DNA of 64,000 nucleotides from Arthrobacter sp. Alg241-R88 (GTDB taxonomy: Bacteria; Actinomycetota; Actinomycetes; Actinomycetales; Micrococcaceae): positions 248,001-312,000 of the forward strand of contig NZ_UNRG01000003.1 in assembly GCF_900537115.1 (NCBI RefSeq), in the 5' to 3' direction. This document shows, in pieces, positions 3 to 15,572 of the stretch. The stretch's first letter is position 1; each line of letters opens with the position of its first letter. Under the pieces are notes generated by a model. It had not been told where the DNA came from, made no database searches, and saw nothing but the letters and a program-made list of their open reading frames with translations. Made by a program: the position numbers and the translations under genes.

Positions 3-752
3 TCGGTGCGGGCGGACCCACTGCACCTCCTGCGCCGGCAGGTCCTGTGGACCGAACCGGAAGACCTCTTTGTCCACCCCCGCACCGTGGCCCTCGCCGG
101 CTCCGCCGCCGGTTTCATCCGGGACCTGGAAGGCATGCCCACCACCGAACTTTCCAGCGCCGATGTGTCCTTCCACGCGCTGCGGGACTATGTCCCCGGC
201 GATGACAGGAGGCACATCCACTGGAAAACAACCGCACGGACCAACACGCTGATGGTCCGCCAGTTCGAAGAGACCCGCCGCGCGCACCTTGCCGTCTCGC
301 TGTCCATCAACACTGACGAATACGCGTCGGAGGCGGAGTTCGAGATGGCCATTTCCGCGGCGGCCTCCATTGGACGCCAGGCAATCCGCGAGCAGCGCGA
401 GCTGGACGTCCTCACCCAGAAAGGCCCGCTGCGCTGCGAAACCGGCCGGACCATGCTCGATGACATGACCAGGATCGTCGGGGCACCGATGCGCCGCACC
501 GCCGTCGATCTCGCCAGGACGCTGGCCGACACCGTTCCCAACGCCTCCGTGGTCTTCTTTGTTGTGGGCAGCAACATCACCGCCACCCAGCTCCGGTCCG
601 CCGCCGCGTCCGTCCCGCCGGGGGTCCGCAGCCTCGCCGTCCGCGTCGAGGCCGGCGCGGCATCCAGCAGGGCCAACATCGCCGACCTGACAGTGCTCAC
701 CCTGGGCGACCTCGACGATCTCGGCATGGTCCTGCGGAAGGCGGCAGCATGA
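3..752 (+). CDS. DUF58 domain protein (5' end outside window)
   Basis: The reading frame is open to the left edge, so the N-terminus is missing. The visible part carries the DUF58 signature: a D-Y-x-P-G-D-D-x-R-x-I-H-W motif (about residues 65-75) followed by 'VRQFEE'. After it comes a von Willebrand A-like alpha/beta fold. DUF58 proteins usually sit beside a MoxR AAA+ ATPase and a transglutaminase. The transglutaminase is the next gene, and a MoxR gene would be expected just upstream of the window (inference). The stop overlaps the next start as ATGA, so translation is probably coupled. Molecular function of the family is not settled. Confidence 0.85.
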   Translation, partial: SVRADPLHLLRRQVLWTEPEDLFVHPRTVALAGSAAGFIRDLEGMPTTELSSADVSFHALRDYVPGDDRRHIHWKTTARTNTLMVRQFEETRRAHLAVSLSINTDEYASEAEFEMAISAAASIGRQAIREQRELDVLTQKGPLRCETGRTMLDDMTRIVGAPMRRTAVDLARTLADTVPNASVVFFVVGSNITATQLRSAAASVPPGVRSLAVRVEAGAASSRANIADLTVLTLGDLDDLGMVLRKAAA

Positions 753-3346
753 CCCCGGCACCAGGCCTGCGCCCACGCACCCCGTCCGCGCGGCAGCCAT
801 CGCGCAACGCGCCGGAATCAGCCTTTGCAGACGGCCAGCCGCTCTGGCATTTCCTGCTCGACGCCGGCGCCCTGACCGCCCTCCTGGGGCTGGGCCTGCT
901 CGGGTTCGGACTCAGCTTCGGCGGCGATCCTTACTATCTCCTGTCGGGATTCGGCGGCATCATCCTGGGCCTGGCCATCGGCGTCCTCAACGCGCACCTG
1001 CGCCTTGGCCTGCTCATCACCACCGCCCTTGCCCTCGGCGCCTACCTCGTCTTCGGGACGTTGCTGGCGGTGCCCGACTCGGCCATCGCCGGCTTTGTCC
1101 CCACCCTGGACTCGCTCCGAACCCTGCTTTTGGGCATCGTGTTCGCCTGGAAGGACATGCTGACCGTGGGCGTCCCGGTGGGAACAGCGGGTGGTGTCCT
1201 CATTGTCCCGTTCCTGGGTTCCCTGGTTACCGGACTCGTGGCAGCCGTCCTCACCTGGCGGGCCAGGACCCCCTACCTCCCGCTGATCCCGGTACTGGTC
1301 CTCTTCGTGACGGGCATCGCCTTCAGCACGAACGCAGCATTCCTCACGCTCGAGCGTGGGATTGGCCTCACGGTCCTGGGCATCGCGTGGGCAACGTTCC
1401 GGCGGGATGCCCTGCGGAGAAACACGTCCGGGAAAGTCGCGGTCAACAACCCGCAGGCGGATTCCGCCACGGTCCGGCGGGCCAAAATCCGCAGGCTGGG
1501 TATGGCAGCAGGCGTCATCGCCGTCAGCGTGGCCGTCACCGCGCTGTCCGCCCCGCTGGTGACCGCCGGGGGAGACCGGAAGGTCCTCCGGAACGTTGTG
1601 GTCCCGCCGTTCGATCCCAAGGACTACATCACCCCCCTCGCAAGCTTCCGGACGTTCGTCAAGGACAAGAAGGATGACACCCTGTTTGTGGTCAAGGGCC
1701 TTCCGCGCGACGCCCGGGTAAGGCTGGGCGCCCTGGACGCCTTCAACGGCACCAACTACACCATGGACCCCAACGGCTCCGGCAACTTCAGCAAGGTGGG
1801 GGACACCCAGTCCATCAACACCCTCGCTGACACCTCCGCCGGGGTTCCCACCAACGACTACTCCATCGGCATCACCATCGAGGACTACCAGGGCTTCTTC
1901 GTTCCCGGCGGCCGGAAAACCACCGGCCTCAGTTTTGACCGGAGCGGTTCGGCGGCGGCCCAGGGCCTCTACTTCAATTCCGGCACCGATACTGCCGTCA
2001 CCACCAACGGCTTGTCCCGGGGCGATACGTACAGCGTCCAGGTGTCCGATCCGGTCAAGCTCGAACACGGGCAGCTGACGCAGTACGACTTCGCGCCGGT
2101 GTCCCTTCCGGAAGCCGTCGAGGTTCCGCCGGTGGTGGGATCGCAGGCCAACGACCTGTCAGCAGATGCCCCCACCGCCATTGACAGCGTCCGCCAGATC
2201 GAAGCCCACTTCCAGAAGACGGGCGCCTTCAGCAACGGACTGGTCAGTGAAGGCCAGCTGCCCAGCGTCTCCGGCCACGGTTCGGCCCGGATCAGGAACC
2301 TCCTGACGGCAAAGCAGATGCTCGGCGACGATGAACAGTACGCCGTGGCGATGTCCCTGATGCTGCGCCACCTGGGCATTCCGTCCCGCGTGGTGATGGG
2401 CTTCTATCCTGATCCCACCAGCCCCGAAAACGGGGCGGGCGAGGTCAAGATCACCGGCAAGAACGTGCACGCCTGGGTAGAGGTCGCGTTTGAGCGCGTG
2501 GGCTGGGTCAGCTTCGACCCCACGCCGCCCAAGGACAACGTCCCCATTCCGCCGGACCCGGAGAACAAGTCCAAGCCCAAGCCCCAGGTCCTGCAGCCGC
2601 CGCCACCGCCGCAGGAACCTGCTGACCTGCCGCCGGACTCCTCACCCGATGCCCTGGACGCGGACCAGAAAAAGAACAACCCCTGGCTGTTCTGGGGCGC
2701 CCTGCTGGGCGTGCTGGGCATTGCCCTGATCCCGCTGTCGATCCTCGCCTTGCCGCTATTGCTGATTGCCCTGATGAAATCACGACGACGGAAGGCCCGT
2801 TTCAGGGACGGCGACCCCGCGCAGCGGGTTGGCGGAGGCTGGAATGAAGTGGTGAGCCTTGCCACCGACATGGGAGCCGCCGTCGATACCCGTTCAACGC
2901 GCCGCGAAAGCGCCGCCGTGCTCGCCGAGGCATTCCCGTCCAGTGGCGGTACCACCACCATGCTCGCGCGGCGCGCCGACGCATCGATCTTTGGCGCCGG
3001 CCAGCCCAGCGAGGACGAGGTCCGCGAATACTGGACCATTGTTGACGGTTCGCTGAGGGACATGACCTCCACCGTGGGGTTCTGGCGCCGGCAGCAGGCG
3101 AGGTTCTCTCCCCGCTCACTGCTCGCCGACGCCCGGCATGTCCTTAACCTCCGCGGGACGAGGCTGGCACTGCCGGTTCGGCCGTTGCTCAAGGGAACTG
3201 GCCGCAGTCGTCGTTCCGGCAGTGCCACAGGCGAAGTGCCGGCGCCGGACACCACGGCTCCGCTCTCCGGGTCACCGGAATCTCCAACACCGGAAGCCCC
3301 GGTCCAGGAATCCCGGATCCAGGGACGCAGAACCAGTGACAGGTGA
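749..3346 (+). CDS. Membrane transglutaminase-like protein (TgpA/DUF3488 type)
   Basis: An 865-residue protein. The N-terminal third is a block of about six hydrophobic helices (roughly residues 30-200), with another helix near residue 255. An extracytoplasmic region then contains the transglutaminase-like core: 'YAVAMSLMLRHLGIPSRVVMGF' (about 530-550) and 'NVHAWVEVAF...GWVSFDPTP' (about 573-595), giving the family's His and Asp. The place where the catalytic Cys is expected reads DDEQYAVAMS, with no Cys, so activity is doubtful. A Pro-rich stretch, a final helix (about 640-670) and a cytoplasmic DUF4129-like tail follow. The start overlaps the DUF58 stop. It probably acts at the cell envelope within the same module. 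Confidence 0.85.
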   Translation: MTPAPGLRPRTPSARQPSRNAPESAFADGQPLWHFLLDAGALTALLGLGLLGFGLSFGGDPYYLLSGFGGIILGLAIGVLNAHLRLGLLITTALALGAYLVFGTLLAVPDSAIAGFVPTLDSLRTLLLGIVFAWKDMLTVGVPVGTAGGVLIVPFLGSLVTGLVAAVLTWRARTPYLPLIPVLVLFVTGIAFSTNAAFLTLERGIGLTVLGIAWATFRRDALRRNTSGKVAVNNPQADSATVRRAKIRRLGMAAGVIAVSVAVTALSAPLVTAGGDRKVLRNVVVPPFDPKDYITPLASFRTFVKDKKDDTLFVVKGLPRDARVRLGALDAFNGTNYTMDPNGSGNFSKVGDTQSINTLADTSAGVPTNDYSIGITIEDYQGFFVPGGRKTTGLSFDRSGSAAAQGLYFNSGTDTAVTTNGLSRGDTYSVQVSDPVKLEHGQLTQYDFAPVSLPEAVEVPPVVGSQANDLSADAPTAIDSVRQIEAHFQKTGAFSNGLVSEGQLPSVSGHGSARIRNLLTAKQMLGDDEQYAVAMSLMLRHLGIPSRVVMGFYPDPTSPENGAGEVKITGKNVHAWVEVAFERVGWVSFDPTPPKDNVPIPPDPENKSKPKPQVLQPPPPPQEPADLPPDSSPDALDADQKKNNPWLFWGALLGVLGIALIPLSILALPLLLIALMKSRRRKARFRDGDPAQRVGGGWNEVVSLATDMGAAVDTRSTRRESAAVLAEAFPSSGGTTTMLARRADASIFGAGQPSEDEVREYWTIVDGSLRDMTSTVGFWRRQQARFSPRSLLADARHVLNLRGTRLALPVRPLLKGTGRSRRSGSATGEVPAPDTTAPLSGSPESPTPEAPVQESRIQGRRTSDR

Positions 3347-14878: not shown

Positions 14879-14948
14879 CGCGGTGTAGAAGACTACCGGG
14901 AACACCAGAAAGCCGCGGTGGGGGGACTGCGCGCATCGAAAGGTAGCA

Positions 14949-15572
14949 ATGACCCCGTCCTCACAGGTCCTCCGCGTTGCCTCGGCGTCGGCATCAGCAA
15001 CGGTTCTGGCGATCTCCGTGGGCCTCTTTCCGGCGGGTCCGGCAGTAGCTGATTCTCCGGATCCAACGCCTGCAGCCACATCATCTTCCACGCAGGCTCC
15101 CGCCGAGTGCCAGCTGATTCTCTGCCTGCCTGTCCTCGGGGAAGATTCGCCGCCCGCGGAGACCGAGCGGCCGCGGAAGGCAAAGGAACAGGCACCCCCG
15201 CCCGCCCAGCCCGCAGCACCTGCACCGCCGGAGCAGCCTGCCGCGCCTGCTGCGCCGCCGGCAATTGTTCCCGCTCCAGCCGACCCTTCCGCTGCTCCGG
15301 CGCCGGAAGGAACTGACCCGGCCCAGGCTGCCCCCGAAGACTCCACAGCGGGCGCCGGCCCCACCCCGTCGAACGGCCCCACCAGCGCATCGAACTGGAA
15401 CACCCCGGTCACGAGGTCCGCCAAGGCCACCCAGGTGGCCGCCGTTTCCCCTGCGGACGGCCGGGGCCCCGGTGGTCCGGAACTCCTCCCGATCACCGCC
15501 GGCGTCCTGCTGGTGGGTGTGGCCAGCGCCGCCTTCGCGTGGTGGGGCAGGCAGCGCATCGGAGCGCACTGA
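14949..15572 (+). CDS. Exported Pro/Ala-rich protein with C-terminal membrane anchor
   Basis: A 207-residue protein with a typical signal peptide (hydrophobic core about residues 10-28, cleavage likely after 'GPAVA'). A short segment with two Cys in C-Q-L-I-L-C follows, then about 110 residues rich in Pro and Ala. One C-terminal helix ('[21 protein letters not shown]') ends in a positively charged tail. There is no LPxTG motif ahead of the helix, so it is probably membrane-anchored and spans the wall region. GAAAGG precedes ATG 14949. It is codirectional with the secretion ATPase and could be an envelope partner or substrate of it (inference). No family recognised. Confidence 0.75.

Follow-up and report, generated by a model that had tools for sequence, protein, structure and literature searches.

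The window analysed here, a stretch of 64,000 nucleotides (nt) from Arthrobacter sp. Alg241-R88 (G000:C3:248001-312000 in our coordinates, within a 4.37-Mb genome, G000, in 19 contigs), begins with a compact row of genes for Ser/Thr phosphosignalling proteins and an ATPase of the type that drives type VII secretion systems (T7SS). We refer to this ATPase as EssC1, a label coined in this analysis for its clade of motors. The genes resemble the PFNA operon, a signalling cluster described in bifidobacteria, and the cluster is probably an actinobacterial T7SS variant under phosphothreonine control, in which a homologue of that operon is joined to a secretion motor.

Gene organization of the locus

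An earlier sequence-only reading had described eight overlapping or nearly overlapping genes followed by a gene for a Pro-rich protein. All the open reading frames (ORFs) that it named were confirmed on the + strand at its coordinates, and Pfam supports every assignment but those of the small FHA-like and the Pro-rich proteins. Lengths below are in amino acids (aa), and TM stands for transmembrane segment.

3..752, +: DUF58 protein, 3′ part of the gene (PF01882; full gene G000:C3:247421-248752, 443 aa, clipped by the window edge)
749..3346, +: polytopic membrane transglutaminase-like protein (TG), 865 aa (PF01841, 70.1 bits; hydropathy; residue checks)
3336..4919, +: RDD membrane protein with a C-terminal FHA domain, 527 aa (PF06271, 43.7 bits; PF00498, 20.3 bits against a cut-off of 20.7)
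4916..5869, +: PP2C-type Ser/Thr phosphatase (PF13672, PP2C_2; NF033484, 205.5 bits, below the cut-off of 230)
5856..7889, +: FHA protein without a predicted TM, 677 aa (PF00498, 21.5 bits against a cut-off of 20.7)
7886..9574, +: membrane Ser/Thr kinase with one TM at about residues 427-445 (PF00069, 140.6 bits; motif and TM checks)
9571..10386, +: small FHA protein (sFHA), 271 aa (AlphaFold model and fold search; no Pfam match)
10383..14828, +: EssC1, T7SS-type ATPase, 1481 aa (FtsK_SpoIIIE and FHA domains in Pfam; EssC and EccC matches in NCBIfam)
14949..15572, +: Pro-rich protein with a hydrophobic N terminus and a C-terminal TM (hydropathy; no Pfam match)

The preferred starts are GTG 3336 (RDD-FHA protein), ATG 5856 (second FHA protein), and ATG 9571 (sFHA); with them, every gene from DUF58 to the ATPase overlaps its neighbour by 4 to 14 nt. 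The Pro-rich gene begins 120 nt past the end of the ATPase gene, and a NAD-dependent DNA ligase gene sits 3′ of it; a promoter and terminator scan of positions 14700-15800 gave nothing informative. The Pro-rich gene occupies the slot where many relatives encode WXG proteins and has counterparts in three other loci (L036, L135, and L137); its membership of the system is uncertain.

The cluster is longer than the window. The sequence-only reading had proposed an upstream search for MoxR, and MoxR was found there together with two giant surface proteins: the upstream order (stretch L004) is two giant proteins with immunoglobulin-like (Ig) and FN3 domains, MoxR (361 aa, directly 5′ of the full DUF58 gene), and the start of DUF58. 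The giant proteins, of 2110 and 2041 aa, contain 10 and 11 Big_9 stretches, respectively, three FN3 stretches each, and cadherin-like domains. Both have an N-terminal hydrophobic segment, and no C-terminal TM was found in them by simple hydropathy. MoxR and the giant proteins belong to the conserved set.

Catalytic and phosphothreonine-binding residues

The proposal of one writer and one eraser of phosphorylation is supported by conserved catalytic residues. The kinase, a homologue of bifidobacterial Pkb2, keeps the catalytic Lys, HRD Asp, and DFG Asp in all 42 aligned loci (46 given). The metal-site Asp of PP2C is present in the window protein, and PP2C residues are kept in 40 to 42 of 40 to 42 loci.

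Four FHA readers had been proposed; three are canonical, but the small one is degenerate. The RDD-FHA and 677-aa proteins retain the canonical G-R/S/H/N residues, and G, R, S, H, and N are kept, bar one His, across 37 and 38 aligned loci, some of which may align through another FHA gene of the same locus. The RDD-FHA protein also has a weak zinc-ribbon match, and the 677-aa protein a zinc-ribbon-like Cys motif, read by eye. In sFHA, Pro replaces the pocket Ser (NPYLHR). The sFHA model has the FHA fold (Z 12.5 and a root mean square deviation, rmsd, of 1.7 over 93 aligned residues), and its C-terminal part is helical with helix-turn-helix (HTH) spacing. The fold search matched the FHA half, so that the HTH-like character of the tail is read from helix order and sequence.

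The membrane transglutaminase of the sequence-only reading matches Transglut_core, but its catalytic Cys is missing: Asp stands in its place (GDDEQY, residue 526), leaving the Cys-His-Asp triad incomplete. Cys is absent from all 45 cluster-type TG proteins read (Asp in 26, Glu in 9, Ser in 8, and Gln in 2; 49 loci were given, with L128 and L129 unread). A TG linked to EssC2, a motor clade described below, has Arg at this position, and a Peribacillus control keeps Cys. Because the catalytic Cys is replaced, the TG-like protein is predicted to be inactive and not an enzyme. In the locus of the control genus (L173, Peribacillus simplex), a Bacillota T7SS-like ATPase gene lies ~6 kb upstream of MoxR, DUF58, and the transglutaminase with its Cys, an arrangement that may be due to chance.

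The EssC1 motor

EssC1 scored 549.5 bits against TIGR03928 (EssC; cut-off 778.4), 346.7 bits against TIGR03924 (EccCa; cut-off 509.15), and 184.6 bits against PF01580 (FtsK_SpoIIIE). By these matches it is related to both EssC and EccC and lies above neither equivalog cut-off. It has a hydrophobic segment at residues 242-282 and three P-loops, two of them intact (698 and 1024) and the third a variant (1302) in which Arg replaces Lys. An FHA-bearing motor of the EssC/EccC type had been proposed from the sequence; the motor type is supported, and the phosphothreonine pocket of the FHA domain (about residues 104-197) is intact: all 17 aligned rows, the outlying Leucobacter tardus sequence included, have G130, R131, S145, H148, N166, and G167.

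AlphaFold modelled residues 1-210 (mean pLDDT 80) as elements in the order b-b-a-b-b-b, resembling that of ubiquitin, followed by a clear FHA domain, which matched GarA in a fold search with Z 17.0 and an rmsd of 1.8 over 98 residues. That search matched FHA at residues 101-202 and was uninformative for residues 1-100. A profile of the first 95 positions had a redesigned ubiquitin as its best match in the PDB (E 9e-4); the others of its 13 matches, at E 0.04 and above, include archaeal ubiquitin-like modifiers (E 0.04-0.05) and unrelated chains. Pfam YukD was matched at E 0.1 by 1 of 21 members. The alignments given to AlphaFold were shallow (10 and 17 rows). Together, the model and profile are suggestive, though not proof, of a ubiquitin-like (beta-grasp) domain, with which EssC1 probably begins (about residues 1-90).

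The leading PDB sequence match of EssC1 is 4nh0, which we take to be EccC of Thermomonospora curvata and which is named "Cell division FtsK/SpoIIIE" there. This name, the FtsK_SpoIIIE domain, the co-encoded giant surface proteins, and the failure to find EccB or EccD in G000 would fit an ATPase that does not export proteins but acts on DNA or the giant proteins, as an FtsK-like translocase or in envelope remodelling. We regard this as very improbable: YukB and EccC5 come after 4nh0 in the PDB ranking, EssC and EccC are the top NCBIfam models, WXG genes lie directly 3′ of EssC1 in relatives, and the N-terminal hydrophobic segment of the giant proteins fits export by Sec.

In a tree of 75 hand-chosen sequences, to which Olsenella and the named Bifidobacterium TsdC do not belong, EssC1 forms one clade of 31 tips with support of 1.0. 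Next to it are Leucobacter tardus (support 0.997) and the EssC2 clade (6 tips). The EssC1 clade stands apart from the Bacillota systems, from Rubneribacter, and from a T7SSd-like locus (L115), where a WXG100 gene, a kinase, a 1798-aa Ig-like protein, and the ATPase are found. The window's motor shares 91% identity with those of a Pseudarthrobacter and an Arthrobacter strain.

A second EssC-like gene of G000 (L074:11327-15448, contig C1, − strand) encodes 1373 aa with an FHA domain and is possibly a separate, older system.

Distribution and synteny in relatives

An EssC-like match at E 1e-30 was found in 142 of 149 genomes of the order, and 40 of the 149 have an EssC1 orthologue (at least 900 bits; the next match scores 585). 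sFHA occurs in 52 of the 149 genomes and in 16 of a 296-genome sample of the phylum. The sequence-only reading had made its case depend on co-occurrence in relatives, and co-occurrence is present: EssC1 and sFHA are both found in 33 genomes of the 149, EssC1 only in 7, sFHA only in 19, and neither in 90 (Fisher p 3e-13; the Fisher tests ignore the kinship of genomes). The two genes are less than 15 kb apart in 27 of the 33 genomes holding both.

Among 30 stretches around EssC1 (12 to 20 kb, mostly on the upstream side), 18 contain MoxR, DUF58, and TG, and 19 contain the kinase; some loci repeat one genome (L063 and L148). Eight control stretches around distant EssC-like genes, whose downstream side was hardly covered, contained no other module gene. 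Two gene orders are seen. The window and most loci have TG-RDD/FHA-PP2C-FHA-kinase-sFHA-EssC1, and four loci (L047, L053, L054, and L056) have kinase-sFHA-Big/FN3-MoxR-DUF58-TG-EssC1. Among the best 80 of 567 matches, most of the set lies beside EssC1 in relatives that include Cellulosimicrobium, Nocardioides potassii, a Propionibacterium metagenome-assembled genome, Luteimicrobium, and Promicromonospora, and, without a kinase match, in Demequina.

The association of motor and MoxR recurs outside EssC1. The downstream side is covered in three of the six EssC2 loci (L117, L118, and L119, family f12), and all three have a second, divergent MoxR there, accompanied by DUF58 at two loci and by TG at one.

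WXG proteins and other secretion components

No WXG100, EccB, EccD, EccE, or mycosin gene had been in view of the sequence-only reading. At the locus this stands, since none was recognised among the typed cluster proteins (EccE and mycosin were without a genome-wide search), but WXG proteins are encoded elsewhere in the genome. EccB (PF05108) and YukD/EccD (PF08817) were not found in the whole of G000, and neither EssB nor EsaA was recognised among the cluster genes, with no genome-wide search made for them. Among the 40 EssC1 genomes, EccB occurs in G007 and G063, and YukD/EccD in these two and G133; five EssC2 genomes (G012, G059, G129, G143, and G146) encode EccB elsewhere.

In many relatives, small ORFs directly 3′ of EssC1 encode ~90-aa proteins with a W-x-G motif. 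A profile, A1, was built from 17 such divergent WXG proteins downstream of EssC1 in 12 genomes, the window's genus excluded. It gave no match at E < 0.5 among window ORFs of at least 40 aa and matched 34 of the 149 genomes at E 1e-6, 24 of which have EssC1. Of 23 genomes in which the distance was checked (G126, a weak match, was left out), 18 have a divergent WXG gene at most 3 kb downstream of EssC1. Twelve of the 18 are training genomes, where adjacency is circular because the profile was trained on genes there; six are not. Four of the remaining five genomes belong to the window's genus, and in the fifth, G122, the contig is interrupted at that point. With the training genomes removed, A1 matches 12 of 28 EssC1 genomes and 10 of 109 others (p 1e-4), and 16 of the 22 A1-matching genomes carry sFHA (p 4e-6). 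The p of 1e-4 is the unbiased value; tests that join EssC1 and EssC2 are biased because the EssC2 set (six genomes) was named after its WXG matches had been seen.

Four proteins of the window's genome match A1:

C4:223234-223494: small WXG protein, 87 aa
C1:454019, C1:591392, and C13:51499: long WXG-domain proteins of 328, 332, and 574 aa, respectively

The small gene has the same conserved position throughout the genus (four genomes), with a transporter-like gene on one side and the gene for a small protein starting MCRNIRTLHN on the other (neighbour names read by eye). In the C-terminal parts of the long proteins, Pfam found no domain at E 0.01. The sequence-only reading had suggested that the system might be minimal for want of WXG100; this is not supported, because WXG proteins of the motor-adjacent kind are encoded elsewhere in the same genome. 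On its gene content and linkage, the cluster is a real, conserved unit whose WXG partners are dispersed in the window's genus.

A canonical WXG100 gene is also present (PF06013, 65.3 bits, over the cut-off; L001:1465-1779, G000:C5:250367-250621), with genes for a histidine kinase and an RNase H-like protein on either side (names by eye). It is not favoured as the partner of EssC1, because 137 of 149 genomes encode a PF06013 protein above the cut-off regardless of EssC1 and because a PF06013 match at E 0.001 is missing from four EssC1 genomes (G058, G086, G122, and G128). It may be a further substrate or work with the second EssC-like gene, L074.

Two regions of G000 encoding long WXG-domain proteins (L122:5356-7080 and L121:4760-5758) have differing C-terminal parts and small adjoining genes; these proteins are candidate effectors. 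Near the WXG genes downstream of EssC1 in the L080:2462-2950 region is an LpqN-like gene (a 121-aa part of its product scores 47.5 bits against PF10738), and a similar-looking one lies downstream of EssC1 in L081.

Relation to the PFNA operon

The PFNA operon comprises pkb2, fn3, aaa-atp, duf58, and tgm, and some species also have prpC, a hypothetical gene, and fha, according to the available text of PMC8430577, PMC6803598, and PMC10688814. Published accounts describe it as confined to (gut) Bifidobacterium and study it as an immune-sensing cluster; Pkb2 is stated to phosphorylate MoxR, which gives experimental support for signalling inside such a cluster. A 2025 review (PMC12067865), in the text available, already likens the mycobacterial moxR operon to it.

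The window DUF58 was matched in 15 of 41 genomes of family f4, taken to be Bifidobacteriaceae on grounds that include gene order. In eight of nine f4 loci Big/FN3, MoxR, DUF58, and TG follow in this order, with the kinase before them in seven and PP2C after them in seven; this is the published PFNA order (PMC8430577, available text). Window proteins found the kinase, Big/FN3 protein, MoxR, DUF58, and TG all together in seven of the nine, with identities of 38-44% for the kinase, 52-60% for MoxR, and 32-35% for DUF58.

The window cluster and the PFNA operon share a homologous kinase, a giant FN3 protein, MoxR, DUF58, a TG-like membrane protein, PP2C, and an FHA protein, and the order fn3-aaa-duf58-tgm. 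They differ in that the window cluster has two giant proteins and adds EssC1, sFHA, and a further FHA protein, and in that its kinase gene is displaced to a place after the TG gene, whereas the PFNA operon starts pkb2-fn3-aaa-duf58-tgm. The order kinase-sFHA-fn3-MoxR-DUF58-TG is found in L047, L053, L110, and L128. From shared genes and order, the cluster is a PFNA operon homologue joined to a type VII motor.

Among open-licence PMC papers, none was found that connects PFNA or MoxR-DUF58 to a T7SS. The available text of PMC3796261 and PMC4572677 names Arthrobacter in other contexts only, and that of PMC8191103 mentions T7SS only in a reference and lists a mycobacterial set of MoxR/DUF58 genes. 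MoxR-vWA conflict systems (PMC7159879) were set aside as a match; DUF58 and WXG have 0 occurrences in the main text of that paper.

Several observations weigh against a single system made of circuit, motor, and WXG proteins. In 6 of the 33 genomes with both genes (G079, G051, G101, G115, G044, and G029), EssC1 and sFHA are far apart. EssC1 is missing from 19 of the 52 sFHA genomes and was not seen in the f4 PFNA stretches; because of these two findings, the signalling part can work without EssC1. Among 17 of the 19 sFHA-only genomes that were fetched, 10 have the kinase and more module genes near sFHA, and 7 (G002, G018, G049, G073, G080, G084, and G147) have at most three other module genes there, which is why sFHA is not a strict module marker. 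Ten genomes carry an A1 match without EssC1, and 16 of 40 EssC1 genomes have no A1 match; 12 of these 16 have other, PF06013-like WXG100 genes near the motor, three (G063, G070, and G133) have no WXG profile match near it, and the contig of G135 ends at the motor. The window's own small WXG gene is unlinked to the motor, and its PF06013 score is 26.6 bits against a cut-off of 27.3.

The PFNA-type module could therefore be an independent envelope or adhesion signalling unit, with EssC1 as a neighbour that has its own job, such as constitutive WXG100 export, and linkage that reflects shared ancestry and not function. The module without EssC1 in L110, L128, L130, and L233-L235, besides the f4 stretches, is consistent with this. 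We nevertheless consider it rather unlikely. The proximity of EssC1 and module survives rearrangement, and two Microbacterium loci (L142 and L144) keep MoxR, DUF58, TG, and an FHA match beside EssC1, with no kinase match in the 10-kb flanks. EssC2 lies upstream of a MoxR wherever its downstream side is covered, and EssC1 itself bears an FHA domain with the phosphothreonine residues. The proposal that the conserved set be treated as one machine thus holds as regards co-occurrence and proximity in relatives, but the signalling part is also found without the motor, and much of the set corresponds to the known PFNA operon.

Proposed mechanism

Gene content, linkage, motor family, catalytic and FHA residues, and the WXG genes are read directly from the sequences; from these, secretion by EssC1 is likely and phospho-gating of its export plausible, and we infer the substrates and the roles of the surface proteins and the chaperone set. 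EssC1 would export divergent WXG100 proteins and also longer proteins that begin with a WXG domain. The small WXG gene of the window's genus is found at its conserved unlinked site and not behind EssC1. The giant Ig/FN3 proteins may form the cell-surface part, as adhesin or conduit, and MoxR, DUF58, and the inactive transglutaminase may be an assembly chaperone set for an envelope complex. The membrane kinase would sense the envelope and phosphorylate Thr residues, to which EssC1, the RDD protein, and the zinc-ribbon protein would bind through their FHA domains, and PP2C would reset the system. sFHA could relay the signal to transcription through its HTH-like tail or serve as an adaptor.

A bolder proposal, which we put forward tentatively and at somewhat less than even chances, is that this is an undescribed T7SS class of several actinobacterial genera, extending from Arthrobacter to Nocardioides. 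In it, a PFNA-type circuit and MoxR-DUF58-pseudotransglutaminase chaperones would control a ubiquitin-like/FHA motor that exports divergent WXG proteins with variable C termini, and the bifidobacterial PFNA operon would be a derived form whose motor was lost or separated.

The joining of a PFNA-type operon to a motor links two separate literatures, those on the PFNA operon and on kinase-bearing T7SS variants. Related clusters suggest that the signalling operon is spread more widely than bifidobacteria and is often joined to a secretion machine, and the residue data predict that the PFNA "transglutaminase" is not an enzyme. The four WXG-domain proteins are candidate substrates in a culturable genus, which offers a tractable case for whether threonine phosphorylation switches a T7SS.

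Comparison with known type VII secretion systems

General features of T7SSs, a membrane ATPase of the EccC/EssC type and a WXG100-family protein in the genome, are present by sequence. With T7SSa (ESX), the cluster shares the EccC-type ATPase domains; EccB and EccD/YukD were not found in G000, and a canonical ESX system is not supported. With EssC/YukBA of T7SSb, EssC1 shares its best NCBIfam match, cytoplasmic N-terminal domains, a hydrophobic segment, and serial ATPase domains. It differs in that its first domain looks ubiquitin-like and not FHA, and its FHA domain keeps the phosphothreonine residues that, in the available text of PMC11217815, T7SSb EssC lacks. The separate EsaB/YukD of T7SSb was not found in G000; a ubiquitin-like domain is suggested on EssC1 instead.

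Close described systems also include T7SSd and T7SSe, as presented in the available text of PMC11217815. Both share with the window cluster an FHA-bearing EssC-like ATPase with conserved phosphothreonine residues, a membrane kinase, and a giant Ig-like protein, and T7SSe also shares PP2C and an FHA protein. The window cluster differs from both by its separate ATPase clade, the MoxR-DUF58-TG set, the probable ubiquitin-like domain, and the unlinked WXG gene. Compared component by component with T7SSd, it has counterparts of TsdC (the FHA-bearing ATPase with conserved phosphothreonine residues) and TsdD (the membrane Ser/Thr kinase). TsdA, the WXG100 protein at the ATPase locus, is not at the window locus but stands beside the motor in many relatives. 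TsdI is a giant Ig-like protein with a signal peptide and a C-terminal TM; simple hydropathy showed no such TM in the window's giants. For TsdH, a small single-TM protein, there is no clear candidate, the layout of the Pro-rich protein being different.

Given the shared ATPase, kinase, and giant protein, and as no separate ubiquitin-like protein was found, the system might simply be the T7SSd of Garrett et al. 2024 in more genera. This appears quite improbable to us: with the sampling given above, EssC1 forms its own fully supported clade apart from the T7SSd-like ATPase of G078 and from Rubneribacter, MoxR and transglutaminase are absent from the main text of PMC11217815, no TsdH-like gene was recognised, and no TsdI-type C-terminal TM was found in the giants. 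As far as sequence can tell, the system of the window differs both from T7SSa and from those T7SSd-like loci with which it was compared.

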